Virus record (IMG/VR): IMGVR_UViG_3300049916_000010
Span: 1 to 22,201 of that record
DNA: 22,201 nucleotides
Origin: a virus
Direction: 5' to 3' (one strand)
The translations under genes and the position numbers were made by a program. How positions within the stretch are numbered: position 1 is the stretch's first letter; every line of letters begins with the position of its first letter. Shown one piece after another: positions 7,081 to 22,201 of the stretch. The notes beneath the pieces were generated by a model. That model had not been told where the DNA came from. It did no database searches and was given only the letters and a program-made list of their open reading frames with translations.

Positions 7081-7458
7081 TTATTTTAAAATTGATTTAG
7101 CAAAAGCATCCCATTTGTTAACCACAACATCGTTTTCGTTGATTGCAGGGTCAGAATCCACTTCTACATTAGTTTCAGTAGCTTCTAATTTCGCTAATTT
7201 AGCTTCCATATCAGCAACCTTGTTAGTCAAGTCAGCAATAACGCTTTCTTTTTCTCCAACAAGACCTGCTAATTCTTCTTTTTCTTCTGTTAAAGATTTA
7301 GCGTTTTCTTCAAGTTCTTCAAACTTGTTAACGATAACCTCATTGTCAGAAATAGAAACAGAAACTTCTTCAGCAGGAGTAGAAACTTCCTCTCCTTTAA
7401 CAGCGTTTAAGATTTCTTCTTTAACACCGTTGAACCAAGTTTTTAATTCTTCAGTCAT
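7081..7458 (-). CDS. Possible nested scaffold protein (125 aa) from an internal start of the protease gene
   Basis: An in-frame ATG at 7458 (residue 210 of the protease) opens MTEELKTWFNG and would give a 125-aa acidic coiled-coil protein identical to the protease C-terminus. The preceding coding bases are strikingly A/T-rich (TAATAATAATAAATC and then AATTAAAATG). They resemble the untranslated leaders of the capsid, 187-aa and 92-aa genes. Lambda gpC/Nu3 is a known precedent for a scaffold nested in a protease gene. Internal initiation is inferred from the sequence context. Confidence 0.45.
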   Translation of the reverse strand: MTEELKTWFNGVKEEILNAVKGEEVSTPAEEVSVSISDNEVIVNKFEELEENAKSLTEEKEELAGLVGEKESVIADLTNKVADMEAKLAKLEATETNVEVDSDPAINENDVVVNKWDAFAKSILK

Positions 7459-8085
7459 TTTAATTGATTTATTATTATTAGTTAATTTCAATTTATCATT
7501 AACCTCTTTTTCATTTACGTTTGTAAACTTAGATAGGTCAAATGAAGCTGCAACTTTCATAGGCTCTGTAATTGTATCTATAAAGCCATATTCCATTGCT
7601 TCCTGACTAGACAACCAAGTTTCTTTATCCATCATATCAGAAAGAGTTTCAAACGAAAGGTTTGATTTCTTAGAATATATTTCGATAATTTCATTTTTTA
7701 TCTTGTCAAGTAAATCAGCAGTCTTACGCATATCTCCTGCTTCACCTGCCGATTGTCCGAAAGGATTGTGTATCATAAAGAATCCGTTTTCTGACATCTC
7801 AATGTTATCTCCTGCCATAGCAATGACAGTTGATATAGATGCAGCTAAACCTTCAATCTTAATGTTTACATATCCATTGTGAGAACGTAAAGTATTGTAA
7901 ATAGCTAAACCATCAAATACACTACCACCAACAGAGTTGATGCGTAATGTGATGTCAGCAGTTCCAACAGCCTTTACTTCTTCTATAAAGTTTTTAGCAG
8001 ATGTTCCGTAATCACCTATCTCATCATAGATAGATATTTCTACGTTATTATCCGCTTTATTTTCTATTGAATACCATTTGTTCAT
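7081..8085 (-). CDS. ClpP-like (S14) prohead protease with C-terminal scaffold-like region
   Basis: A 334-aa two-part protein. Residues 1-180 form a ClpP-like serine protease. RINSVGGSVFDGLAIYN (about 48-64) is the oxyanion/strand motif. GLAASISTVIAMAG contains the nucleophile Ser83, and FFMIHNP contains His106. The third acidic residue is probably Asp153 or Glu155, before WLSSQEAMEYGFID. Residues 210-334 are acidic and coiled-coil-like (ELEENAKSLTEEKEELAG, and the stretch around residues 285-303), as expected of a scaffold. The protein would shape the procapsid and cleave scaffold or capsid during maturation. An internal ATG (residue 210) could yield the scaffold alone. The start at 8085 lies 4 nt after a TAAATTTG box. 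Confidence 0.85.
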   Translation of the reverse strand: MNKWYSIENKADNNVEISIYDEIGDYGTSAKNFIEEVKAVGTADITLRINSVGGSVFDGLAIYNTLRSHNGYVNIKIEGLAASISTVIAMAGDNIEMSENGFFMIHNPFGQSAGEAGDMRKTADLLDKIKNEIIEIYSKKSNLSFETLSDMMDKETWLSSQEAMEYGFIDTITEPMKVAASFDLSKFTNVNEKEVNDKLKLTNNNKSIKMTEELKTWFNGVKEEILNAVKGEEVSTPAEEVSVSISDNEVIVNKFEELEENAKSLTEEKEELAGLVGEKESVIADLTNKVADMEAKLAKLEATETNVEVDSDPAINENDVVVNKWDAFAKSILK

Positions 8086-8089
8086 TTTG

Positions 8090-8123
8090 CAAATTTAATT
8101 ATTAATAGTTAATATCTTTCGCA
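8090..8123 (-). promoter_or_regulatory. Promoter-like element before the protease/capsid genes (TGCGA type)
   Basis: On the minus strand TGCGA (8123-8119) is followed by 21 nt and TAAATTTG (8097-8090), then CAAA and the ATG. The same arrangement precedes the 131-aa gene with identical spacing, and about 25 of 34 positions match by hand count. There is no TTTG at the usual -33 position. A small inverted repeat TTTC-gca-GAAA spans 8117-8127. Confidence 0.5.
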
Positions 8124-8136
8124 GAAATGGTCAAAA

Positions 8137-8454
8137 CTACCTAATGTTGTAATCCTTGTTGTATTTACGCTTGTGCTTATAGATTATATTCTGTATAGTT
8201 CTCTCTGACACATCATACTTAATAGATATATCCATATAGGTATAAGTATAGTTGTTGTCATTCTCCAAGAGTATTCTGTCAAAATCTCTTATTATCATAT
8301 AATCCCTTAGCTTTCTAGGCTCGATAAGACCTTTCTCTGATAGATGGTTCAGGACATTCTTAATTCCTGCTTCCTCAGAGTATCGTGCTTTGACTTCATT
8401 GTATATGATGTCTATGAACTCATCAACAATATCAGCACTATTCTGTCTTATCAT
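8137..8454 (-). CDS. Small helix-turn-helix protein, candidate late regulator (105 aa)
   Basis: I choose the ATG at 8454 (MIRQNSADIV, 105 aa). The upstream TTG at 8460 would lie within a TATATTTG box. The C-terminal third, from about residue 70 on, reads YTYMDISIKYDVSERTIQNI followed by a basic YKHKRKYNK tail. That is a typical helix-turn-helix in which the recognition helix follows DVSE. The N-terminal part is helical (FIDIIYNEVKARYSEEAG). The overall plan recalls small phage activators such as the Mor/C type, but I see no specific family signature. The gene lies alone between tail and head modules, with promoter-like elements on both sides. That would suit a regulator of late genes. A packaging or structural role cannot be excluded. 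Confidence 0.6.
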   Translation of the reverse strand: MIRQNSADIVDEFIDIIYNEVKARYSEEAGIKNVLNHLSEKGLIEPRKLRDYMIIRDFDRILLENDNNYTYTYMDISIKYDVSERTIQNIIYKHKRKYNKDYNIR

Positions 8455-8457
8455 ATG

Positions 8458-8489
8458 CAAATATATTAAAAAGTAGCCTGACTTTCAAT
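8458..8489 (-). promoter_or_regulatory. Candidate promoter for the HTH gene
   Basis: On the minus strand ATTG (8489-8486) is followed by 20 nt and TATATTTG (8465-8458), a full match to TAnnTTTG, then CAT and the ATG at 8454. The -7 box starts immediately after the stop codon of the tape measure gene, and the -33 part lies within its last codons. Confidence 0.45.
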
Positions 8490-11327
8490 AGCAGATATTC
8501 TATTCTGCACATCTGTCATATCACTTTCTACGATTACAACCTTAGAACTTCCCATTCCTCCGCTTATTAATTGTTGTGCAGACCTTAGTTCACCACCCAT
8601 CGCAAACTTCTCTCCACTATTGAGTAAACCACCATCAGCGAACTTAACACCATTACCATTGTAACTGTTTATTGCTGATAGCATTGGTCTAAACATACTT
8701 GTTGAACGTTTGTTGATAATTGCTTCACCACCTTCTGCTTCGTGTATTCTACCACCAACTCTAAATTTAACACCGCCATTAGCGTGTGATGCACCTTGAA
8801 ACATACCGCCATTTGTAAGACCACCGTTAGCAAACTGATTACCAACCTCAACAGTTTCACCTCTAGTTGAATCAACATCACCTCCACCACCTTTAAGAGC
8901 CATTAAACTAGCTATAAGAGGAGCAACAGCACCCGCCATCATTGCCATACGAGCAAAGGCACTAAAAGGGTCACCTGATGAAGCTTGTTTTGCAATGGCT
9001 GATTGAGCAGATATAATACCTTGTATAGCTTGAGCTACGGATGCAGCTTTGGTTATTGCTATACCTGCTTTTGCAGCAGCAGAGTTCTCACCCATAATTT
9101 GACCTATTTCTGTAAGAGATTTACCAATAGCCATTGCGTTTTCTATGTTAGCTTTTATAAGGTCGGATTTAGCCTTTTCAGTATCTTCTGTTTGTTTTAA
9201 ATCTGCTTCTCTATTTTTAACTCTTAAATTAGCTATTTTTTCTTCAATACCTATTCTTTGTTCAGCAGAAAGATTCTCTATATCTAGCATATTCTCAAGA
9301 TGAACTATTTGTATATCATACAATCTGCTGTTTAGTTCTTCTTTTGTTTCTATTTCTTTGTTTGCAAAAGATGTTTTTGTAGCTAAAATCCATTCCTGCA
9401 ATGTTAGTTCAGCTTGTCCTAAAGCTGTTGTAGCAGGGTCAACTCCATCACCCGCAGGTGTACCTCCCGTACCTCCCGTACCTCCTGTTGAAGGGTCATC
9501 CATCCCCATTGTAAGACCAAACTTTTTTGCAAAATCTTCTGCATCTTTTAATATCTTCTGACTTTCTGTTTGCAAATCTTCAAAATCTTGTTGATTTTTT
9601 TTCATTGCAACACTTGCAGTAGATAAAGCTCTTAAAGACACTTCACTACTTGTTTTAATTCCCTTAGAGCCTGTTACACTTATTAAACTAAATGGGTCGC
9701 TTAAATCACCTTTATCTATAAGACCTGCATCTTGCATAGATTTTTTAATAGCTGAAAATGCTTCTGTTGTAGTTTTACCTTCTAATTCAACCGCTAAATT
9801 GTGTTTTTTCTTTAATCTTAATGCTTCTGTGTCAAATTCATTTTGCAACCTTGTTATATTAGCATCTTTTTCTTGAGCATCAGACAAAACCTTACTTAAC
9901 TTGTCCTCTTTTTGCCTTAACGCTATTCTTTTAAGATATTGGTCATTTGCTAATGATAACGATTTTTTTAACTCATCGTTTTTGGTTTTTTCTGCATCAA
10001 GCTGAGTAAAATAATTTGGGTATAATCTTTGCAATCTTTCTATTGCTTTCTTTCTTTTATCAGTTCCTTCTTCTAGTCTTGATGCTTGAATAGCTAAAGC
10101 GTTCATCTTTAACCTATCTTTTTCTAATTCTTCAGACATAGTAACCTCACTAAAAGAAGCAAACTTATTGAATAAATTAGTTAAAATATCAAGAGTTTTT
10201 TGTATTGAAGGAGCGAACTTTTCTACAATAACTATTCTTAGTCCATCAAGTGCTGATTGAAAACGAAGTGTAGCACCTTGTAGTGAATTAGCAATAATAT
10301 CAGCCATATCTTGTGCTGCACCTGCTGATGCCCTAAATGATTCTGTTTGGCTTTCTATCTTATCAATATGCTCAATCATTGTAGATATAGCAGCAACCTG
10401 TCTTACATCAACAACCTTTAGCATCTTCTCTACATTTATTCCCTCATCTCTCATTCTTCTAAACTCCTTAACCATATCCGCACCTGAGTTTACAGTAAAT
10501 CCAATAGACTTGGCTAAATCAGATGAAGGGTCGCCAAGTTTAAGGAATATGTTACGAAGTGATGTACCCGCGATAGATGCTTCAATACCTGCATCTGTAA
10601 GCACACCCATAATAGAAGTAGTTTCTTCTAAGTCCATACCTAGAAGTTTTGCAACAGGAGAAACCTTTGTCATTGATGTTTGAAACTTCTCAAGTGTAAG
10701 TGCAGAGCTTGTAAATGAAGCAGCCATTACATCGGCTACCCTTGCTCCCTCACTAGCATCCAAACCAAAACCTCTAATAGTAGAACCAATTACCGTTGCA
10801 GTTCTAGCCAAATCTTCACCTGTTGCTGTTGCAGCAGTTAATGCTGCTTCCTGTACTTTTAATACCTCTGCTGAGGTAAATCCAAGTTTAGAGAAGTTAA
10901 GCTGTAAGGCTGCTACTTGTTGTGCTGTAAAAAATGTAGAACGACCTAGTTTCTGAGCTGACTTATCTAGTTTTAAAAACTCTTGTGTATTAGCACCTGA
11001 GATTGCCTTAACCTTTTGCATCTCAAATTCGTAACCCTTAAACACTTCTACACCTTTTCTTAACTCAGCAGTTAATGCTTTTGATATTTTAGAAAAAGCC
11101 ACCAATGCAGCAGTAGCTGCTAAAGCATTTTTAGCTAGTTTTTGTATTCCTAATTTTGATTCTTTAGAACTTTTACCAACTTTTTTAGTTGATTCATCAG
11201 CTTCTTTGCCTTTCTTGCCTAACTCCTCATAGTTGCCTGCTAACTTTCCTATCTCAACATTTAAAGCCTTAATATCATTAAGTCCTAGTATTTTAATTTT
11301 ATGTACTGTTTGTTGCTTCTTCGCCAT
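8466..11327 (-). CDS. Tail tape measure protein (TP901 family)
   Basis: A 953-aa tail tape measure protein that sets siphovirus tail length and is packed inside the tube. Residues 90-365 carry the TP901 core, with GYEFEMQKVKAISGA, LGRSTFFTAQQVAALQ, LTAATATGEDLARTATVIGS and DAGIEASIAGTSLRNIFLKLG. Residues 395-605 and 640-730 are charged coiled-coil helices, separated by a Gly-Thr-rich linker at about 614-624. Residues 740-815 contain an Ala-rich hydrophobic region that may cross a membrane during DNA delivery. The Gly-rich end includes RIHEAEGGEAIINKRST, a motif common in Bacteroidota phage tape measures. At about 1.5 angstrom per residue a tail near 140 nm is expected (inference). The start overlaps the gp10-like gene stop (TAATG). 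Confidence 0.93.
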   Translation of the reverse strand: MAKKQQTVHKIKILGLNDIKALNVEIGKLAGNYEELGKKGKEADESTKKVGKSSKESKLGIQKLAKNALAATAALVAFSKISKALTAELRKGVEVFKGYEFEMQKVKAISGANTQEFLKLDKSAQKLGRSTFFTAQQVAALQLNFSKLGFTSAEVLKVQEAALTAATATGEDLARTATVIGSTIRGFGLDASEGARVADVMAASFTSSALTLEKFQTSMTKVSPVAKLLGMDLEETTSIMGVLTDAGIEASIAGTSLRNIFLKLGDPSSDLAKSIGFTVNSGADMVKEFRRMRDEGINVEKMLKVVDVRQVAAISTMIEHIDKIESQTESFRASAGAAQDMADIIANSLQGATLRFQSALDGLRIVIVEKFAPSIQKTLDILTNLFNKFASFSEVTMSEELEKDRLKMNALAIQASRLEEGTDKRKKAIERLQRLYPNYFTQLDAEKTKNDELKKSLSLANDQYLKRIALRQKEDKLSKVLSDAQEKDANITRLQNEFDTEALRLKKKHNLAVELEGKTTTEAFSAIKKSMQDAGLIDKGDLSDPFSLISVTGSKGIKTSSEVSLRALSTASVAMKKNQQDFEDLQTESQKILKDAEDFAKKFGLTMGMDDPSTGGTGGTGGTPAGDGVDPATTALGQAELTLQEWILATKTSFANKEIETKEELNSRLYDIQIVHLENMLDIENLSAEQRIGIEEKIANLRVKNREADLKQTEDTEKAKSDLIKANIENAMAIGKSLTEIGQIMGENSAAAKAGIAITKAASVAQAIQGIISAQSAIAKQASSGDPFSAFARMAMMAGAVAPLIASLMALKGGGGDVDSTRGETVEVGNQFANGGLTNGGMFQGASHANGGVKFRVGGRIHEAEGGEAIINKRSTSMFRPMLSAINSYNGNGVKFADGGLLNSGEKFAMGGELRSAQQLISGGMGSSKVVIVESDMTDVQNRISAIESQATF
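9460..9486 (-). repeat. Three copies of a 9-bp repeat encoding a Gly-Gly-Thr linker
   Basis: The plus strand reads GTACCTCCC twice and GTACCTCCT once. It encodes GGT units in the flexible linker of the tape measure protein. Such repeats can change copy number without breaking the frame. Confidence 0.7.
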
Positions 11328-11845
11328 TATACTTGTTTTGGTAATTGTTTAAATATGTTGTTTATATCTGTTGATATTGATTTGTCAATGTCGTTAAGAA
11401 AGTGTCTTTCGTTGCTTCCTACCACTCTATTAATAAATCCTGTTCTATATGTATTATTAGAATACTCCTTGCTATTTTTTGTAGGAGTACCTTCTCTTGA
11501 TATTGCTGCTGCAATTAAATATGCTATTCGTAATCTTTCTTGTGTTCCGCTTGGAAACTTCTTACTGTTTCCATTCTTATCCTTATCATCCATCCAATTC
11601 ATTATCTCAGACACATCCCAATCAAAAGGTCTTTGACCTTCATTGACCTCTCTTACATAGTCTGCTTTAGATTGAATTATTAGCTCGACATAGTTATTGC
11701 CCTCATCCAATGAATAGTGCATAGTGTCGTGCATATGTCCTGATGCAATATGATTCTGATTAACAAGTTCTTCTTGTATTCTTTTTACAAACTTCTTACC
11801 AATGTCATTTATTGCCCTATCAAATGTCTTTAAAACGTTCTCCAT
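11327..11845 (-). CDS. gp10-like tail completion / neck protein
   Basis: A 172-aa protein. Its pattern resembles HK97 gp10-type tail completion proteins, which join the tail to the head connector. There is an N-terminal amphipathic helix (FDRAINDIGKKFVKRIQEEL), then a short IASGHMHDTMHY segment, then a strand leading into the ADYVREVNEGQRPF motif, the usual YxxxVExG-type region of this family. The middle differs from classical gp10 in having an insertion with DWDVSEIMNWMDDKDKNGN and RLRIAYLIAAAISREGTPT. A C-terminal helix follows. It lies directly before the tape measure gene and overlaps both neighbours by 1 nt, so coupled translation is likely. Confidence 0.6.
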   Translation of the reverse strand: MENVLKTFDRAINDIGKKFVKRIQEELVNQNHIASGHMHDTMHYSLDEGNNYVELIIQSKADYVREVNEGQRPFDWDVSEIMNWMDDKDKNGNSKKFPSGTQERLRIAYLIAAAISREGTPTKNSKEYSNNTYRTGFINRVVGSNERHFLNDIDKSISTDINNIFKQLPKQV

Positions 11846-12765
11846 TATTCTTTTGCTAATGATGCTTCTTTAATTATTGAGTTCTCTATCTTAGCTAAGT
11901 TATCGTTTAAATAACCGTCATAAGCTGAAAAGTGATATATGCTACCATTGTATGTCGGTATAGCTGAATTACCCAACTTGCCTATTTGGTCAAAGGTAAA
12001 ATTGGTTGTAGCTATAACTCCGATATGCACCTGTGTTCCATTCTCTCTTATGTAAATCTTATCACCTTTTCTTTGTACTGTAATCAATAGTTTTTTTGTA
12101 CTTGGCTGCCAATACCCTGTTGTCGTTACAACAACCTCGCTTGACGCTGAAAATCTAAGGTTGTATGATTCATTGTACCCTTCGCTTATTGACAAATACA
12201 TATTGTTGTCATCACTCTTTCCTAGCAATCTAGTGTTCTTATGTCCTCTTACAGATATTGGTTGTATGTAGAAGAATAAACTAAAATCACCTGCAAGTGT
12301 GATAGCTGTATCAAGCGACATAAAGTCTGATTGCTCTTTATTAAAAAACAAAGGCACTTGACCGTTAACACCGCCACGCTTTGAGCCTAAAGAAGGTTGA
12401 TTATCTGTTGTGGATTGACCTAAAGTATATCTACCCTCTAAGCTACCCCAAGAAGATATAGCACCGCTAGTATGACTTATGCCTTTTTGATATGTAAACA
12501 CGCATAACGGAAATACATTAACAGCTACACCATCTACAATCTCAATTTGCCTAGATATTTTAGGTGCTTGGTTTGTAGCCGACAAAAGTCTTAGCTGTCT
12601 TTGTTTGGGTATAAGAAATACAGGCTTTTTGTGTTGTGTATTATTCTTAGTGTTTGTGTAATAAATAGGTTGTAAAACACCATCAACAGTAACGTAGATG
12701 TTTTCACCTACATATTCTGTAACCTCTTTAGTCTTTGTATTTTCTGTAAACTTTACTGTTCTCAT
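11845..12765 (-). CDS. LamG-like domain tail protein (306 aa)
   Basis: A 306-aa protein with an unassigned N-terminal part (residues 1-95) and a LamG/concanavalin-like beta-sandwich at about 100-295. The second part shows VPLFFNKEQSDFMSLD, LAGDFSLFFYIQPISV, KIYIRENGTQVHIG and the closing GSIYHFSAYDGYLNDNL, the usual strand pattern of LamG domains. These often bind glycans. In a virion they probably help adsorption to surface polysaccharide. It is encoded between the 861-aa tail protein and the gp10-like gene with TAATG overlaps at both ends. The N-terminal region may anchor it to the tail tip. No catalytic residues of a polysaccharide lyase or hydrolase are apparent. Confidence 0.6.
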   Translation of the reverse strand: MRTVKFTENTKTKEVTEYVGENIYVTVDGVLQPIYYTNTKNNTQHKKPVFLIPKQRQLRLLSATNQAPKISRQIEIVDGVAVNVFPLCVFTYQKGISHTSGAISSWGSLEGRYTLGQSTTDNQPSLGSKRGGVNGQVPLFFNKEQSDFMSLDTAITLAGDFSLFFYIQPISVRGHKNTRLLGKSDDNNMYLSISEGYNESYNLRFSASSEVVVTTTGYWQPSTKKLLITVQRKGDKIYIRENGTQVHIGVIATTNFTFDQIGKLGNSAIPTYNGSIYHFSAYDGYLNDNLAKIENSIIKEASLAKE

Positions 12766-15350
12766 TACATTCTAAGGTTTTCTGCGTCTATATATAATGA
12801 TGCAGGTGCATCTGATTTTCCTAAATTAAAGAACTCTTGTAGCTCTACCTTTGTTGATTCTTTGTGATGTGGCTTGAAATCTATTATCTTGTTTATTCTG
12901 TAATAGATACCATCAATAAACACTAAGTTTCTAAAGTCTAGTTTTTGTATATCCGACTTTTCTAAGTTTATATACGCTACTTTTATTCTAGGGTTGTTTC
13001 TTAACTGCTCAACCATTCTAGTGTAATAGTTAGAATATAATCCTGACTTAGTGTAAGTTCCGTTAACAACAGTTTCGTGTCTTATGTCTGCAAAAGAAAG
13101 GTTGTAGTCAACTGTTTGATGACCGTCTGATATTGTTAACTCTGACAAGGTATTTATTGCAGGGTCATCATTAGGGTCATCTGTTGATACTAGGTTATCG
13201 TAATTAACAAACGTAGCTTTATTCCAAGTTTTATTAGCTACTGCTGCACCTGTTGATGGGTCGTTATCACTATCCACATAAGTCCAAGTTCTCTTGCCGT
13301 TTGCTGATGAATACAATCCTCCACCTTTTAGAAGTATTCTAGCACCGATAGCAAACTCTTTCTCAGGTCTTTCTACCGCACTAGAAAGCACTAAATCAGT
13401 AAAGTCTGTATGATACATAGGTATTAGAGGAACTCTAGCTATATGCGGACTGTAAATTATTGAAGGCTCATACCAATTAAAAGTAGGTGAGAAGTAAGCG
13501 TTTTCTACTTTGTACTCTCCGTTTTGTAGATTGCCCGTTGCATCAGTTTCTTCATAAGCACCCCAATCCACAGTATTCTTTTTGTTGTATCTTTCTATAA
13601 GAGCATCACTACTAGGGTCTTTGTATTTAAAAATCATATTAGATTTTAACTCATATAAAAACTCGTCTTTTATATTCTTAGAGTAATCTATTTTATCAGT
13701 CCAATTATAGGCTGATGCTGTTCCGTTATAAAAGTAATCGTAAGGCTCAATATACACTATTTTTGCTATCGGGTCAGTTTCAAATTGTAAGTTGAATAAC
13801 TGAGATATACCTTTAACAAAATCAGACTGCTTACCTTTAGGTAGTAAGTGTTGTATGTTTCCTATATCTTCACCACTAAAAAACGCTGAGGTTTGCTCTA
13901 TCTGAAGGAAGCTACCTGATAACACCTTAACCGTTTCTCTTGTAAGATAATCACCATCTTTGTCAGAACCGCTCCTTCTGTGAACATAATGAACAATCAG
14001 AGCTACCTTATCACCCTCATCTAGGTTTGTTTCTTCGTCAAACTGAAACTGAAATTGCTCGGAGGTGTGTATTGCATATCCCGAAGCTGCACTATGACCT
14101 ATAACAAATGTATCTGATGCACTATCAGAACCGTAGTTTGGCGATTCAACTATGCTTATAAAATCATCTGTATCGTCATTTGTTCCTACCTTTTTTAAAG
14201 CAGCATATATTTGAAGCGAAGAGTTTCCATCTAAATCTTGGTTATTAGTAGTTCCTGATGTTGGGTCAATATCAAAGCTAACCTCAACTGTAAGGCTTCC
14301 TGTTAAATTAAAAACACCACTACCTTGTGCTGCAACAACTAATCCATTTTCAAAACCACCTGAATGAACAGTTCCGAGTTGTGCATTTCCGTAATCATCC
14401 GTATCTAATCCTCCTTGTGCAGGTGCATCATCAACTAAAGTGTCTGAGGACATTACAAACTCTAGCTTATGGTCATCACTATTAAACTGTGTTGTTATGG
14501 TAGGGTCATCTATTGCTCTTAATATTGTAAAGTTGTTGTTACCTCCTGAACCTGCATTATAGTCTGCTGTATCAAACTGATATATAGTTTCATCAGCACT
14601 CATAGAAACCTTACCTAAAGAGAAGTCTGTATATTCACTAGGTTTCTCAAATATCAAAGGCATTATTAGATTCTTAAAAAATGCACTATCACAAAATGTT
14701 GATGTAACACTATATCCTTGTGCTTGAAATATCTTATCCCAAACATTTTTTACAAACACGCAGGGAACGTAGTCGCTGTCAATAACAGCAGGTGCGGTAC
14801 TATCCTTTTCACCTACACTTAAAACAGGATATACAAGTTTATCTTGATTGAAAACATAATTACCATAATAGCTAGACGGGTCTGTATAACTAAACACTAC
14901 TTCAGGAGAAGGGGGGTAAGAACTATAAGCTGCACTACTAAATCTTAAATCATCTAATTTGAGGTTTTTGATAGCATCTGCCCAATCCATATTATCACCA
15001 AGAAATATACATTCATACTCTAAAACCTCTGTGTTTTTGTATATCTGTGTTACTCTTAGCTTTCCTGTAATTATAGGAATATTATCAGCATATATTGTAG
15101 ATGGTATATTCTTTAGAACATTGTTGTTGTCAATGTTACCATCTCTATATATGTGATTAAAAAGTCTATTGTTATTTTTAGATGCAGGTATCTTAAATGT
15201 TTTACTAAAGCTACCGCTACGAGAGTTGAAATCCCTAACATCAAAGTTCTGAAAACTCAACGACAAAGGAAAGTCATCACTAGACGTAATGTCAAGGTTA
15301 CCTAATATACCATCCGTAAAATCTCTTAACTCAACTCTTATTTCTGCCAT
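12765..15350 (-). CDS. Large tail tip / baseplate hub-like protein (861 aa)
   Basis: An 861-aa protein of a type common in tails of Bacteroidota phages. Residues 30-62 contain FQNFDVRDFNSRSGSFSKTFKIP, split here as FQNFDVRDFNS and RSGSFSKTFKIP, the most recognisable part. Residues 195-235 hold VKNVWDKIFQAQGYSVTSTF. Residues 500-540 carry LLPKGKQSDFVKGISQLFNL and KIVYIEPYDYFY, which look like the conserved hub fold. Between about 260 and 490 lies an Asp/Ser/Gly-rich beta domain that looks like an insertion, possibly a carbohydrate-binding module. The final part (about 740-861) includes DIQKLDFRNLVFIDGIYY. A role as central tip protein is inferred from size, place and motifs. TAATG overlaps link both neighbours. 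Confidence 0.65.
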   Translation of the reverse strand: MAEIRVELRDFTDGILGNLDITSSDDFPLSLSFQNFDVRDFNSRSGSFSKTFKIPASKNNNRLFNHIYRDGNIDNNNVLKNIPSTIYADNIPIITGKLRVTQIYKNTEVLEYECIFLGDNMDWADAIKNLKLDDLRFSSAAYSSYPPSPEVVFSYTDPSSYYGNYVFNQDKLVYPVLSVGEKDSTAPAVIDSDYVPCVFVKNVWDKIFQAQGYSVTSTFCDSAFFKNLIMPLIFEKPSEYTDFSLGKVSMSADETIYQFDTADYNAGSGGNNNFTILRAIDDPTITTQFNSDDHKLEFVMSSDTLVDDAPAQGGLDTDDYGNAQLGTVHSGGFENGLVVAAQGSGVFNLTGSLTVEVSFDIDPTSGTTNNQDLDGNSSLQIYAALKKVGTNDDTDDFISIVESPNYGSDSASDTFVIGHSAASGYAIHTSEQFQFQFDEETNLDEGDKVALIVHYVHRRSGSDKDGDYLTRETVKVLSGSFLQIEQTSAFFSGEDIGNIQHLLPKGKQSDFVKGISQLFNLQFETDPIAKIVYIEPYDYFYNGTASAYNWTDKIDYSKNIKDEFLYELKSNMIFKYKDPSSDALIERYNKKNTVDWGAYEETDATGNLQNGEYKVENAYFSPTFNWYEPSIIYSPHIARVPLIPMYHTDFTDLVLSSAVERPEKEFAIGARILLKGGGLYSSANGKRTWTYVDSDNDPSTGAAVANKTWNKATFVNYDNLVSTDDPNDDPAINTLSELTISDGHQTVDYNLSFADIRHETVVNGTYTKSGLYSNYYTRMVEQLRNNPRIKVAYINLEKSDIQKLDFRNLVFIDGIYYRINKIIDFKPHHKESTKVELQEFFNLGKSDAPASLYIDAENLRM

Positions 15351-17530
15351 TATTGTATGGTTCTTTTAGCTTTACTTTCTATATAATTTACTGTGCATCT
15401 TTGCAAGTTCTCATTGTCAAATGTGGTAACACTAGCATCCTTAATTACAACAGGAACATAGTAGCTTCTATTTAGTGTAGAATACCAACCGTTAGAGTTA
15501 GGTATGTCTGTTTGATATTCCCTTACCACAATGTAATCTATCTGAGTAATATCACTTTGGTCATTATAGTTAACCAAGAACATTGGCTTTATATATCTTA
15601 CACCTGTGTATGCTGTTGACGGGTTATTAGGGTCGTGTGAGTTTGATGTGTACGAATCAGAGTTCCCTGAAACGTAACCTCTAAATGTTTCCCATCTATC
15701 ATTAGCAGTTTGGTCGTAAGCACTTAGCGTAACATAATGTGCGGGTGATAAGTTTTCTGTTCCATTAGAACTAATTAATGTCGTTCCATCAGCAGCAAGT
15801 CCAACAAACCCACAGTAATGTGTGCCATTGCTAGTTCCGCTACTTTTCATTCTTATCTCTATTTCGTAAATACTTTTAGGATTGTAGGGTATAGCCTTTC
15901 TGTGATAAGAAAAAAGCTCATCATTGCCTGAATCATTACCAATTACAATAGTTTTTGTTCCTGACAACTGACCATCGGCTGTGCTAAATGATACATCTCC
16001 TGAACCTCCACCACTAGCATACCAATCTGTATTATAAGCAGCAAAATCTGCATAGTCAAAACTTTCTCTAAATACTTCTTTGCCTACCCATCCCTTCTCT
16101 ATCCATACATTTGGTGATGCTAATAAATCCTCAAACATATCCTGCTCACCAACACCATAAGGTCTTGAAACAGCAGTTCCTTCCTTTACAGCTTTTACTT
16201 GCGACTTTCTAACAGAAGGGTATTTATCATCAGTAAGACCTGCTACTCTAGGAACTAAAGCACCATAATCTTCTGCATACAAAGGATTCTCACCAACAAC
16301 AACTTTAGTGTCGCTTGTTGACTGACCTAGCTGTCCTCTAAAGTCAGGATATATGCTTTGCTCGTAAGATTTAGAAGATATGTTTATGCCCTCGCTAAAT
16401 GTTCCGTCAAAAGTGTAGCTATCTATACCGCCTAGTCTGTTCTGCCAATGAAACCTTACGCCATCAACTCTTTGTCTATTATGGTCAATGTAATATCTAA
16501 CAGTTTCGCCTATTTGGTCGCTTTGTGCAACTTCAGTATATACATCATAAAACTTAATGTTTGTAAAGTCTGTAACAGCACAATCATCATTAAATCTTTC
16601 TCTATTTGTTTCTTTTATGTTTCTTGTTCCTATACCTATTTGACAGACAGAGAATGGCTCATCAGTACTACCGCTATTTGCCCAAGAGTTTAGATTACTA
16701 CCACTATTTCCCTGACCATCTACGGTTGTTGATATTGACATAGTATAAGAGTTGGTTGAACCTGCTACATCAGTACCTATTAGACTACCATTAAATCCTC
16801 TAAATCTAATAATAGCACGAATATCAGTTCCGTCATCATAGTTTAGGAATGACAAATACTCACACTCATCTACACCTATAATTCTATAACTTGTTGGTTT
16901 AGTAGTTAAATACTTTTGTCTGCTAAGACCCCTAAGTGAGTACGCACTATGCAAGTACACATTTGATAGACCTGAACCTTGATACACAAAGTCATTATCA
17001 CTAAGCAGCTTTTCGCCAATGTTAAGATAATGTTCTTCCTCGTGAAGTAAAGCACTATTTGTTGCTATAAATGTTCCTGAATCAGATTCTCCTGAAAGTG
17101 TTAGCTGACCATTAGATATAACCTCCAACTCAAATGTTACAGTAAACTTTTGATATACATTGTTTGATATTTCCCCTTGTGTTATATCCCTTCTAACCAT
17201 TGTGCTTAAATCGTGCGTACAAGGTCTTAGATTGTATGACAAGAAATCTCTACATATTGAAGAAACATCTATGGAGTAATACAGGTAGTTATTGTTTGGT
17301 GTATTACCTGCTGCATTGAAGTTGGGTATATTTATACTAGGCTGCACTCTAATAGAAACTTTTTGGTCTGTCAACTCTGAATCCGTAATATTATCGAATG
17401 GGGTTATAGTAACCTTTGAGCTTACATAAGCATCTCTATTTGTGGTTTCGGCTCTAGCATTAAACTTTATTGGCTGATATACGCTTTGAAAAGTATTTGC
17501 AGGTTGGTCTGTTAACTGATAATCAGGCAT
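15350..17530 (-). CDS. Distal tail protein with inserted CBM-like domain (726 aa)
   Basis: A 726-aa structural protein without a named family that I can assign. Residues 1-175 are beta-rich (VYQPIKFNARAETTNR, KFTVTFELEVISNGQ) and could form a distal-tail-like ring domain. Residues 340-460 include RYYIDHNRQRVDGVRFHWQN and FRGQLGQSTSD. Residues 485-675 look like an inserted CBM-like module. It opens FRESFDYADFAAYNTDWYAS, has SIYEIEIRMKSSG in the centre and closes TQIDYIVVREYQT. The end (675-726) resumes with SYYVPVVIKDASVTTFDNEN. A tail tip role with glycan binding is inferred from the neighbours and the inserted domain. It overlaps both neighbours by 1 nt in TAATG junctions. Confidence 0.6.
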   Translation of the reverse strand: MPDYQLTDQPANTFQSVYQPIKFNARAETTNRDAYVSSKVTITPFDNITDSELTDQKVSIRVQPSINIPNFNAAGNTPNNNYLYYSIDVSSICRDFLSYNLRPCTHDLSTMVRRDITQGEISNNVYQKFTVTFELEVISNGQLTLSGESDSGTFIATNSALLHEEEHYLNIGEKLLSDNDFVYQGSGLSNVYLHSAYSLRGLSRQKYLTTKPTSYRIIGVDECEYLSFLNYDDGTDIRAIIRFRGFNGSLIGTDVAGSTNSYTMSISTTVDGQGNSGSNLNSWANSGSTDEPFSVCQIGIGTRNIKETNRERFNDDCAVTDFTNIKFYDVYTEVAQSDQIGETVRYYIDHNRQRVDGVRFHWQNRLGGIDSYTFDGTFSEGINISSKSYEQSIYPDFRGQLGQSTSDTKVVVGENPLYAEDYGALVPRVAGLTDDKYPSVRKSQVKAVKEGTAVSRPYGVGEQDMFEDLLASPNVWIEKGWVGKEVFRESFDYADFAAYNTDWYASGGGSGDVSFSTADGQLSGTKTIVIGNDSGNDELFSYHRKAIPYNPKSIYEIEIRMKSSGTSNGTHYCGFVGLAADGTTLISSNGTENLSPAHYVTLSAYDQTANDRWETFRGYVSGNSDSYTSNSHDPNNPSTAYTGVRYIKPMFLVNYNDQSDITQIDYIVVREYQTDIPNSNGWYSTLNRSYYVPVVIKDASVTTFDNENLQRCTVNYIESKAKRTIQ

Positions 17531-18705
17531 TATATTTTGTATTTATGTTGTAAGTATCTATTTATCTGTTTTACTTGGTCGTGAGTAACAGCATCGTGAT
17601 TAAATATTATAAGCTCTTGCACATTACCTTGAAAGAAGTTTGTTGGTGATATGTATTTATTAGCACCCAATACAATAGGAGAAAGGTTGCCAAAATACCA
17701 AGTGCTGTGCATCCAATCGTTTACATTATCGTGTCCTATTTGTGTTTGGTTTGCAAACAAGTGAAATCCTTTGTTGTGAAAGTCAAATCCAACTACTGAA
17801 GTTCCATACTCGTAATCAGAATCCAATTCTATCTCCTCACTTTGAGGGTCATACAAAAACCCTCTAATGTTAATATCATTAATATTTCTTGAAAGATTAA
17901 TAAATATTCTTTGTATATTAGTTCCTTCACCATTTTTACTTAAAAAAGAAAAATTTGCTTCACTTGTTGGTTTAGCTACCCAAATAATTGTATATTCGTG
18001 ATTAAGACCATTGCTACCGTCAATAGAATTGTTTATGCAACTCATAAAGTCGTTAGCACCATCAAACTCTAGGTAAGGATAGCCATTGTCAGTATTCTCG
18101 TACTTGTATATTGGCTTTGCTGTGCTAGTAGCCTGCACAAAGTCATTACCATTACTACTTTGGTCAATCCACTTGTTAACCACCTCGTTACCGCCAAAGA
18201 ACTCCGTTTTAACGCCCATATCTGCCTTTAGCCACACTTTTGGGTTGTAAGACATAACAAGTGCTTCATCCATAGCTAAAAGGCTGTGAGAGAACGTATT
18301 TAAAGTAAAAGTAAGCCTGACTTGTATCAACTTGTCGTTATACAACTCTTTTTCTCGTTCGACAGATATACTGTCAGGACTTAAAATTACTTCTTTACTT
18401 GTGTAGCTATCCAACACCCTTTGCAGCCAAGTCAAACCCTCTTGCTCTAATAAACTAAACACCACATCAAGCGAACCTGATTGGTTTTGGTAGTAAGGTT
18501 TTGTTATAAGGCACTCAAAGGTGTATTCTTCTTGCACATCACCTTCCGTAGCAGGAAGCTCTGATGTTGGAGGTAAAACAACTAATAATGGGTAGTCATT
18601 GTTATGATTCTCGTTTATTTCATTCTCATAACCAAAAATAAAGCCACCATTAATCCATTGTTGCTCAAACCTATCTCTTATTTCTCTAAGTTTTGTAAAA
18701 CTCAT
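17530..18705 (-). CDS. Two-domain protein: tail-terminator-like N-terminus fused to LamG domain (391 aa)
   Basis: A 391-aa protein with two clear parts. Residues 1-145 (LREIRDRFEQQWINGGFIFG, DYPLLVVLPPTSELPA, YTFECLITKPYYQ, then KLIQVRLTFTLNTFSH) have the size and alternating helix/strand pattern of tail terminator proteins, a tentative match. Residues 150-391 are a LamG-like beta-sandwich with PKVWLKADMG, VVNKWIDQSSNGNDF, YPYLEFDGANDFM and FQGNVQELIIFNH. The typical W-x-DqSg-n-nd-f and l-FdG-ndy motifs are easy to see. LamG domains often bind sugars. The gene overlaps the frameshift-extension stop (TAATG) upstream and the 726-aa gene downstream. The domain join is notable because terminators are normally stand-alone. 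Confidence 0.65.
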   Translation of the reverse strand: MSFTKLREIRDRFEQQWINGGFIFGYENEINENHNNDYPLLVVLPPTSELPATEGDVQEEYTFECLITKPYYQNQSGSLDVVFSLLEQEGLTWLQRVLDSYTSKEVILSPDSISVEREKELYNDKLIQVRLTFTLNTFSHSLLAMDEALVMSYNPKVWLKADMGVKTEFFGGNEVVNKWIDQSSNGNDFVQATSTAKPIYKYENTDNGYPYLEFDGANDFMSCINNSIDGSNGLNHEYTIIWVAKPTSEANFSFLSKNGEGTNIQRIFINLSRNINDINIRGFLYDPQSEEIELDSDYEYGTSVVGFDFHNKGFHLFANQTQIGHDNVNDWMHSTWYFGNLSPIVLGANKYISPTNFFQGNVQELIIFNHDAVTHDQVKQINRYLQHKYKI

Positions 18706-19001
18706 TATTTTATCTGTTTTCGCTGTTCTTCATTGACAGCTAATTCATAATCTCCTTTTGCAGTTTTCCAAGACAGGTATGTTAAAACCTTATACAACTT
18801 TTCGTCTTTTACACTTTGCATAGCATCTTTACCCTCTTTTGTAAATACTCCATCAAGTGATAGGTCATATAAGGTGTTCAGCCAACCAAATGGCTTCATT
18901 ATCTTACTTGCCTTCGCTACTGCGATACTTTTTGTTCCGCCATTTCTGAAAAGGTTTTTATAACGTTGATTGATGCCAAAGTTCGTTTGTTCAAAAAAAA
19001 A
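18705..19001 (-). CDS. Frameshifted extension of the tail assembly chaperone (gpT-like part)
   Basis: A -1 slip at the T run would take ribosomes from the 214-aa chaperone frame into this frame, giving a product of 285 aa from 19561 to 18705. This frame adds 96 residues after the slip, starting FEQTNFGINQRYKNLF and ending NEEQRKQIK. An ATG at 19013 exists in this frame but lies just upstream of the slip site with no convincing leader. Independent translation is therefore less likely. In lambda the equivalent gpGT fusion recruits tube protein to the tape measure. The arithmetic (857 nt plus one re-read base = 286 codons with stop) fits a -1 slip exactly. Confidence 0.7.
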   Translation of the reverse strand, partial: FFFEQTNFGINQRYKNLFRNGGTKSIAVAKASKIMKPFGWLNTLYDLSLDGVFTKEGKDAMQSVKDEKLYKVLTYLSWKTAKGDYELAVNEEQRKQIK

Positions 19002-19561
19002 CTGAACTCCCATACGATGTCCATTGTCAACTCACGAAACTTCTTCGCCTTTTCGTCAATATTGTCTAGGTCAACCTCCTCATCTACTTCTTTACACAAA
19101 ATTGCCATTTGTTCAGGTAAAATATCAAATCTACCGTTTTTTAGGTATTGTGTGTTCAACTCCAACTGTTGACTTTCTATATAATCACCAAAAGTACCTG
19201 TTCTTAGGAAGTCCATAGGAAAATAGTAAACTTTTCCATCAAACTCGAAATAATCCATTCCTTTTGGCTTATATTCCTCCATAATCTCGTTAAGGCACTC
19301 AATTACTGCCATAACATCATCCATAGGCACGTTTGCCATTGTTTCACCGTCAATACCCGTCATATAGATGAATAATTCCTTATACATCTTATTTTCTTGC
19401 ATAACGTGATACTTTGTTAGGTCATTCTCGCTATTTGCTTCATCTTCTGTGATTTGATACTTTTTTATTATATCATATACACCACAGTAGTAGTCAACGG
19501 TCATTTCCTCCCACTTGTTAGGGATATTGTATTGTTTGTTATTGATTTCTATGTTTAACAT
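18917..19561 (-). CDS. Tail assembly chaperone (gpG-like)
   Basis: A 214-aa protein. It opens MLNIEINNKQYNIPNKWEEM, a pattern typical of tail assembly chaperones (a short beta hairpin followed by a helix starting around W17). An acidic, mostly helical body follows, including MDDVMAVIECLNEIMEEY and KEVDEEVDLDNIDEKAK. The short C-terminus after residue 189 continues in frame for 25 residues if no shift occurs. The combination with an overlapping -1 frame and a slippery T run is the hallmark of gpG/gpGT genes. These coat the tape measure protein during tail assembly and are absent from the virion. The start overlaps the 131-aa gene stop by 7 nt. Confidence 0.72.
   Translation of the reverse strand: MLNIEINNKQYNIPNKWEEMTVDYYCGVYDIIKKYQITEDEANSENDLTKYHVMQENKMYKELFIYMTGIDGETMANVPMDDVMAVIECLNEIMEEYKPKGMDYFEFDGKVYYFPMDFLRTGTFGDYIESQQLELNTQYLKNGRFDILPEQMAILCKEVDEEVDLDNIDEKAKKFRELTMDIVWEFSFFLNKRTLASINVIKTFSEMAEQKVSQ
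18993..19001 (-). promoter_or_regulatory. Slippery site for -1 programmed frameshift (T9)
   Basis: Nine T residues on the minus strand are read AGT TTT TTT TTG in the chaperone frame (residues 187-190). A -1 slip gives TTT TTT TTT GAA and enters the overlapping downstream frame. Nine identical bases could also cause transcriptional slippage. I saw no clear stimulatory hairpin just downstream. Confidence 0.72.
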
Positions 19562-19950
19562 TGTTTTTCTACTTTACTTTCTTCTTCTAAATCTTTTAAC
19601 ATATCTGACAGTCTGCCTACCATTTCCATAGTTGCACTATGTATATTGGTTGAGCATTTGTCTAATAAATCCTCATTGGACTTATTTTTTAATCCTGCAA
19701 AGAAGCCTAAAGTAGTGAACATAGCTAAATTTGGTATAGAAAACAACCATTCGCTTACACTATCGTCTTTCAAGCCAAAATCAGAGAAATCATTGTGATA
19801 CATTAGTATATCGCTAAGAATATCTTGAAAATCGTTGTATTTACCACTTTCAGCCATCTCAGTAGCGTCATACACTTGTTTCTGAACAAATGTTAGATAA
19901 TCTAGGACTATCTGCTCGTGTTCTTCGTTTATGTATATGATTTCACTCAT
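19555..19950 (-). CDS. Unknown acidic helical protein (131 aa) before the tail chaperone
   Basis: I do not recognise this protein. It is acidic and mostly helical: EEHEQIVLDYLTFVQKQVYD at the N-terminus, a loop with HNDFSDFGLKDDSVSEW, then a hydrophobic stretch LFSIPNLAMFTTLGFFAGLK (about residues 69-88) and a final helix MVGRLSDMLKDLEEESK. The hydrophobic stretch is short and Pro/Gly-containing, so it may be a buried core helix and need not span a membrane. The gene follows a 71-nt gap with a promoter-like element, and its stop overlaps the chaperone start. A tail assembly role is suggested only by position. It may be the first gene of the tail operon. Confidence 0.6.
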   Translation of the reverse strand: MSEIIYINEEHEQIVLDYLTFVQKQVYDATEMAESGKYNDFQDILSDILMYHNDFSDFGLKDDSVSEWLFSIPNLAMFTTLGFFAGLKNKSNEDLLDKCSTNIHSATMEMVGRLSDMLKDLEEESKVEKQC

Positions 19951-19955
19951 TTCTG

Positions 19956-19989
19956 CAAAATTAATTATATATGTTAGTTATCTGTCGCA
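19956..19989 (-). promoter_or_regulatory. Promoter-like element before the tail operon (TGCGA type)
   Basis: On the minus strand TGCGA (19989-19985), 21 nt, then TAATTTTG (19963-19956), CAGAA and the ATG at 19950. The order, spacing and much of the intervening sequence match the element before the protease gene. The terminase and 131-aa genes are separated here by the only sizeable gap in the region, so a new transcript start is plausible. Confidence 0.5.
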
Positions 19990-20021
19990 ATTTTTGTGCA
20001 AATTTCAATTTTATAGGTCAT

Positions 20022-21856: not shown

Positions 21857-21888
21857 CAAAACTAAATAAAATACTATACATATACAAA
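21857..21888 (-). promoter_or_regulatory. Candidate Bacteroidota promoter before the terminase genes
   Basis: On the minus strand TTTG (21888-21885) is followed by exactly 20 nt and TAGTTTTG (21864-21857), a full match to the -33/-7 consensus. The ATG of the small terminase comes 4 nt later, so the transcript may lack a leader. It is the best promoter match in the window. Confidence 0.6.
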
Positions 21889-21914
21889 TAGCTTTATCTT
21901 TAGCTTTATTATGT

Positions 21915-21931
21915 AGGGTATATTATACCCT
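21915..21931. promoter_or_regulatory. 17-nt perfect palindrome, possible operator
   Basis: AGGGTATA-t-TATACCCT, 8-bp arms around a single central base. No T tract follows on either side, which argues against a terminator. It overlaps the first ACCCTT repeat and lies 27 nt upstream of the terminase -33 box. Confidence 0.5.
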
Positions 21932-21972
21932 TCACAAACCCTTCATTAACCCTTTAACTATAAAATACCCTT
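21927..21972. repeat. Four ACCCTT repeats, three at 11-bp spacing
   Basis: ACCCTT occurs at 21927, 21938, 21949 and 21967. The first three start points are 11 bp apart, about one helical turn, with the longer form ACCCTTCAnnA seen in the first two. The inverse, AGGGT, lies at 21915. Such phased repeats often bind an oligomeric protein, such as small terminase or a regulator. Confidence 0.55.
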
Positions 21973-22012: not shown

Positions 22013-22033
22013 TTTCGCACTACTTTTGCGAAA
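22013..22033. promoter_or_regulatory. Inverted repeat with plus-strand -7-like box
   Basis: TTTCGCA and TGCGAAA form perfect 7-bp arms around 7 nt. The plus-strand TACTTTTG (22021-22028) matches TAnnTTTG. The TGCGA arm is the same motif found upstream of the tail and protease genes. There is no TTTG at the expected -33 position. It may control rightward transcription out of the window. Confidence 0.4.
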
Positions 22034-22070
22034 GACTATCTTTTATTTTAACTAACTTCGTACCTTTCCT

Positions 22071-22120: not shown

Positions 22121-22201
22121 CTACTTATAAAATTGGATTCCATTTTGTTGTGGTTATGTGTATATGCAGAAGTAATAGGTATTAGTTATTTGACGGTAAT
22201 T

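Follow-up and report, generated by a model that had tools for sequence, protein, structure and literature searches.

A probable three-site, activator-type late regulon on Bacteroidota-type promoters of uncultured phages, with a putative activator encoded beside the head promoter

Our analysis of the window (the whole stretch of 22,201 nt examined here, record IMGVR_UViG_3300049916_000010) pointed to a probable late regulon of the activator type, in which three promoter-like sites would be governed by a phage protein encoded beside the head promoter. On balance, we favor a model in which the late promoters depend on an activator, three boxes serve as its binding sites and a 105-aa HTH protein is their likeliest reader. 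This 22.2 kb fragment of a virus has, on the minus strand and in this order, TerS, TerL, tail module (131-aa gene to tape measure), 105-aa gene and head module; the last begins with the head maturation protease and also includes the probable major capsid protein and the portal (Table 1). The tail module thus separates TerL from the head module, and the portal gene is 3' of the capsid gene, an order that is unusual for tailed phages. Two ORFs of 214 and 102 aa (18705-19561, minus strand) overlap by 97 nt in different frames and occupy the usual place of tail assembly chaperones with programmed frameshifts. No known RNA family was found in the window. The relatives of the record are uncultured IMG/VR contigs, and protease matches in isolate phages were all distant (<60% identity). 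A close provirus relative, sought in GTDB genomes for host assignment, was not found; the host is presumably a member of the Bacteroidota, with the promoter type as the sole ground.

Table 1. Positions of the promoter-like sites and genes considered in the window
Feature	Position	Strand	Details
Head maturation protease gene, first of head module	7081..8085	-	ATG 8085
Head-operon promoter (putative)	8090..8123	-	TGCGA box 8123-8119, 21-nt spacer, -7 element TAAATTTG 8097-8090; ATG 8085, 4 nt on
Candidate activator gene, 105-aa protein with C-terminal HTH	8137..8454	-	ends just upstream of head promoter
TATATTTG, element 3 nt before 105-aa gene ATG	8458..8465	-	overlaps tape-measure stop codon
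131-aa gene, first of tail module in window	19555..19950	-	ATG 19950
Tail-operon promoter (putative)	19956..19989	-	TGCGA box 19989-19985, 21-nt spacer, -7 element TAATTTTG 19963-19956; ATG 19950, 5 nt on
TerS promoter, canonical -33	21857..21888	-	TTTG 21888-21885, 20-nt spacer, TAGTTTTG 21864-21857; ATG 21852, 4 nt on
Third site, divergent from TerS	22026..22060	+	TTGCG 22026-22030, 22-nt spacer, -7-like TAACTTCG 22053-22060

According to the original prediction, a shared promoter-like element (TGCGA, 21 nt, TAnnTTTG, then 4-5 nt to the ATG) precedes both the 131-aa gene and the protease gene. Both sites were recovered exactly and at the same spacing (TGCGACAGATAACTAACATATATAATTAATTTTG at 19989-19956 and TGCGAAAGATATTAACTATTAATAATTAAATTTG at 8123-8090, minus strand); they were the sole two exact matches to TGCGA-N21-TAnnTTTG in the 22.2 kb record, in which the reversed-pattern control gave none. 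The two 34-mers share 25 of 34 bases by computed count, as the earlier hand count had suggested, and the distance to the ATG is indeed 5 nt for the 131-aa gene and 4 nt for the protease. TAnnTTTG, the -7 element of Bacteroidota primary-sigma promoters, is exact at both sites. The pair is not the whole set, however, because a third copy with one mismatch is present upstream of TerS (22027-22060, plus strand). Two such motifs adjoin ATGs, whereas 1000 dinucleotide shuffles gave 0.001 on average and never reached two. The tail and head sites are very probably real co-regulated promoters, and to judge from their sequences they would be active and drive the tail and head genes in step.

To characterize their conservation, we searched the relatives for TGCGA-type motifs and compared 54 distinct upstream regions of the protease gene and 26 of the 131-aa gene from IMG/VR relatives, counting columns from 0 at the first base of TAnnTTTG. 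The TGCGA block might have proved unconserved in relatives; instead, the box was kept in dozens of them at a fixed distance of 22 nt from the -7 element. What is conserved is the position rather than the letters as first read: the box is TKC followed by G, A or T, and although tail and head sites carry the same type of box, its letters vary by clade, in concert. Box and -7 element form the conserved islands of both intergenic regions. At head sites, T(-26), C(-24) and A(-21) were invariant, G(-23) was found in 40 of 41 and most other spacer columns were less informative; a conserved T was also seen near -49. All 16 alignable tail sites had TGCG, and TAnnTTTG was present in all 41 distinct aligned head sites and in most tail sites, several distant tail sites having one mismatch in this element. 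The near-clade tail promoter (AAAAAYTGCGACAGAWAAC...TAATTTTGCA) was almost constant, though the 131-aa proteins are mostly only 37-59% identical. TGCG-N22-TAnnTTTG occurred exactly twice in each of ten near-clade relatives of full or near-full length and once in an eleventh, a short contig; the reversed controls in these relatives gave no match. In distant clades the head box took the form TTTTTCGCAAA or a close variant, its CG kept at an unchanged distance and N22 exact. Even the relative G022 (protease 40% and 131-aa protein 28% identical) kept CG-N22 at both tail and head sites, its head -7 element lying about 15 nt or more from the ATG. Another short sequence, TATAAAATTG, is found just after the TerL stop (20006-20015, minus strand) and downstream of the third site (22126-22135, plus strand); it has two to three copies in most relatives, and most clades keep the copy upstream of the tail promoter unchanged. 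AT-rich spacers do raise the identity of 25/34, but a mere chance likeness of AT-rich intergenic sequence is scarcely credible in view of the shuffle test, the conservation profile, the exact spacing across clades and the three-site concerted change described below; chance similarity is already refuted by conservation.

As had been predicted, TTTG at -33 is missing from the tail and head sites, whereas the TerS and early promoters of the same phages carry it with a spacer of about 19-21 nt; its absence is therefore specific to the tail and head sites. Among 66 distinct intergenic TAnnTTTG sites of the same genomes with 15-35 nt leaders, a list of early promoters and some chance sites, the TTTG distance peaked at 19-21 nt upstream (28 occurrences), and TGCG at 22 nt never occurred. 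Bacteroidota-type hosts use no Shine-Dalgarno sequence, and their primary sigma factor is atypical. Compared with their primary-sigma promoters (TTTG at -33, TAnnTTTG at -7), the -7 element is identical and the TerS and early promoters are canonical, but the tail and head sites have a clade-specific box at N22 instead of TTTG. Upstream of TerS there is also a conserved block (21900-21965, minus strand) in which AAGGGT is repeated and a GGGTATAATATACCC palindrome precedes AAAGCTAAAGATAAAGCT repeats; the block could be a packaging site or an operator.

It is quite likely that a positive factor replaces the -33 contact. TAnnTTTG would be read by the host polymerase carrying sigma-A, the primary sigma factor of Bacteroidota, and a phage protein bound to the box (TKCG in most clades; taking the -7 element as -12 to -5, the box core would occupy -38 to -35) would stand in for the TTTG contact and recruit or stabilise the polymerase. 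The box overlaps the -33 position at a strictly fixed spacing, and an alternative sigma factor, or sigma-A region 4 itself across a longer spacer, could read it as a variant of the -33 element. We consider this improbable. The -7 element has the primary-sigma form TAnnTTTG, and the early promoters of these genomes have their TTTG at 19-21 nt. A Pfam and PHROGs scan of ten of the early proteins yielded no recognisable sigma factor, and a host sigma would not track the concerted, clade-wise changes in the box letters. There is equally little to recommend the box as an operator at which a repressor at -38 to -35 silences the tail and head promoters until late. Operators overlapping the -35 are common and concerted change would fit a repressor equally well, but promoters without the -33 TTTG should be weak unaided, repressible promoters usually retain TTTG and an operator does not need invariant N22 spacing.

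Under the activator model, one protein would read three boxes, namely those of the tail operon, the head operon and the divergent site upstream of TerS. This third site was kept in G001-G004, G006-G009, G011, G016, G019, G020 and G024, but the search did not recover it in the clade of G005, G010, G013 and G023. The -7 element of the third site is imperfect (TAACTTCG or TAACTTGC). The 9-mer TGCGA[AC]AGA has exactly three copies in the window, G001, G002 and G003, always 22 nt from a -7-like element, and G004 has two further copies without such an element. No conserved ORF was found downstream of the third site, and we therefore predict a non-coding leftward RNA directed away from TerS. Many relatives have a conserved CAACGTTG palindrome after the third site, possibly part of a non-coding RNA. 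In the window, the third box pairs with another copy in the opposite orientation to form an inverted repeat, TTTCGCA-N7-TGCGAAA (22014-22034, plus strand), which is present in some relatives (G002, G009, G016) and absent in G001.

The boxes of the three sites change together. Most clades have G at position -23 of every site. G024 has A there at all three (tail ATTGCAC, head TTTTTCAC, third TTTTGCAC), and G019 and G020 have TTCTAA at all three, with head TTTTTCTAAAG and third TTTTTCTAAAA in both; their tail site reads TTTTCTAAT in G020 and TTCTTCTAAT in G019, G019 with the same imperfect -7 element CAATTTTG. These three relatives have extra genes between TerL and the 131-aa gene, and the box is still beside TerL, 5' of the gene that now comes first. 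That three separate loci have undergone the same base change in two lineages (a small number, without formal correction for relatedness) is hard to explain unless they share one trans-acting reader. A DnaA-like early protein was considered for this role, as TTTTTCACA of G024 resembles a DnaA box, and was set aside, its gene being undetected in the G024, G019, G020 and G022 contigs. A dyad or direct-repeat architecture of the box, with an 11-bp upstream half-site, was seen by eye only and not established.

The likeliest reader appears to be the 105-aa protein, and we regard this assignment as somewhat more probable than not. Its gene lies between the tape-measure and protease genes, the predicted structure has a C-terminal HTH (AlphaFold, pLDDT 90), and it was the only HTH protein detected in 16 of the 16 genomes compared, some of which are incomplete contigs. 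Relatives of this protein numbered 423 in one search of IMG/VR viral contigs and 483 in another, and none was found among the isolate phages and reference genomes searched. HTH residues 77 and 88, otherwise invariant, differ only where the box differs, a co-variation seen in two lineages and not corrected for phylogeny. Across the distinct HTH stretches, S77 and Q88 accompany CG boxes, G77 accompanies TTCT, A77 TGCT and R88 TTCA; near-clade CTGCG boxes were missed by this box/residue pattern and were read from a separate head-site comparison. Two other widespread early HTH proteins kept their recognition helices where the boxes changed.

The 105-aa gene closes the tail module, which makes a feed-forward loop likely: the tail promoter would yield the activator and the activator would in turn act on the tail and head promoters. 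A starting supply would be needed, because the gene is downstream of the tail promoter that its product should activate. An early-encoded reader would remove this problem, and the same three-site regulon could be read by an early phage HTH protein (of 65 or 78 aa, both widespread in related phages) or by a host regulator. We hold this to be unlikely: the recognition helices of the 65-aa and 78-aa proteins are nearly constant in G019 and G020 despite the changed boxes, both proteins were undetected in G022, which keeps the box (though this contig may be incomplete), and a host regulator is not expected to shift its specificity along phage clades. Whether TATATTTG is the 105-aa gene's own conserved promoter was left uncertain, since distant clades have degenerate forms of the element (TATATTGC, TATATTTA) and since it shares bases with the tape-measure stop. 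The TATATTGC form before the 105-aa gene in distant clades (8458-8465, minus strand, in the window) fits the TAnnTTGY motif (SM5) of F. psychrophilum (PMC9723704).

The distance of 3-5 nt between TAnnTTTG and the ATG fits a -10-type element close enough for initiation at the start codon, a prediction that was overlooked when the 4-5 nt distance was first noted. A -10-like element directly before the ATG has been taken to predict the absence of a 5' UTR (PMC3160421), and in F. psychrophilum TAnnTTTG is at -12 to -5 and only 5.5% of mRNAs are leaderless (PMC9723704). Given the 4-5 nt to the ATG and this flavobacterial numbering, the TerS, tail and head transcripts should start at the AUG or about 1 nt before it and thus be leaderless. 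Such an element is the trait in common with leaderless mRNAs as described elsewhere (PMC3160421); here leaderless initiation is a predicted trait of the TerS, tail and head promoters, whereas the early genes of the same phages have leaders of about 20-30 nt. In G019 and G020 (L327-L330), 3' of TerL, the tail box is followed by an ATG that starts a reading frame of five codons (MDNNI); the first real gene comes after it, so that the operon looks as though it were headed by a leaderless mini-ORF.

Related arrangements are known from other phages. In phage T4 middle promoters, a MotA box takes the place of the -35 contact and the -10 is retained; MotA boxes are centred near -30 and AsiA is required. 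The proposed activator box in the -35 place and the retained -10-type element are common to both systems. The middle and late promoters of phage Mu have a -10-type element without a -35 and need Mor or C, small HTH proteins that are encoded close to the late genes and bind at the -35 region (PMC4287176, PMC4461284). Our tail and head sites have the same type of element, with -7 and -33 as the analogous positions, and the candidate protein here, also small and encoded in such a place, would act likewise. However, the Mor dyad is centred at -43.5 (PMC4287176), whereas the box core here is at -38 to -35 with no convincing dyad; the phages studied here also have the Bacteroidota -7 element TAnnTTTG, predicted leaderless starts and a 105-aa protein without significant Mor/C homology. 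Against Pfam Mor (PF08765), this protein scored 9.9 bits, below the cut-off of 24.9; 33 of 33 members of its family matched PHROG 836 'late transcriptional activator' with weak E-values (best 0.0018), and hhalign against Mor/C gave P 0.017 and a probability of 2.7%. With Foldseek, Mor (1rr7) was at rank 1 (E 0.49) using a low-confidence model and at rank 10 (E 3.9) using the pLDDT 90 model. Membership in Mor/C was therefore not adopted: the signals from Pfam, PHROGs, hhalign and two AlphaFold/Foldseek runs are no more than suggestive, and they fade when the better model is used. The 105-aa protein may work like Mor/C but is not filed as a member. No description of late gene control or late transcription in phages with Bacteroidota-type promoters was found in the literature searched. 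The third divergent site, the concerted box change and the 105-aa candidate reader are new.

A more far-reaching reading, which we offer tentatively and with clear doubt, would combine a new family of small activators that replaces the -33 contact, a passage from leadered early to leaderless tail and head mRNAs, a divergent non-coding transcript toward the early operon, and a DNA specificity that has shifted in at least two lineages with the three sites following. If true, the divergent transcript could help to shut the early operon down. Our data yield a defined cis element at three sites and a candidate activator, and the natural co-varying box and protein variants (TGCG, TGCA, TTCT) make the specificity of this activator directly testable. 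The activator model would reveal by what route a phage can dispense with the -33 contact of the Bacteroidota sigma factor; late leaderless initiation becomes a concrete prediction.
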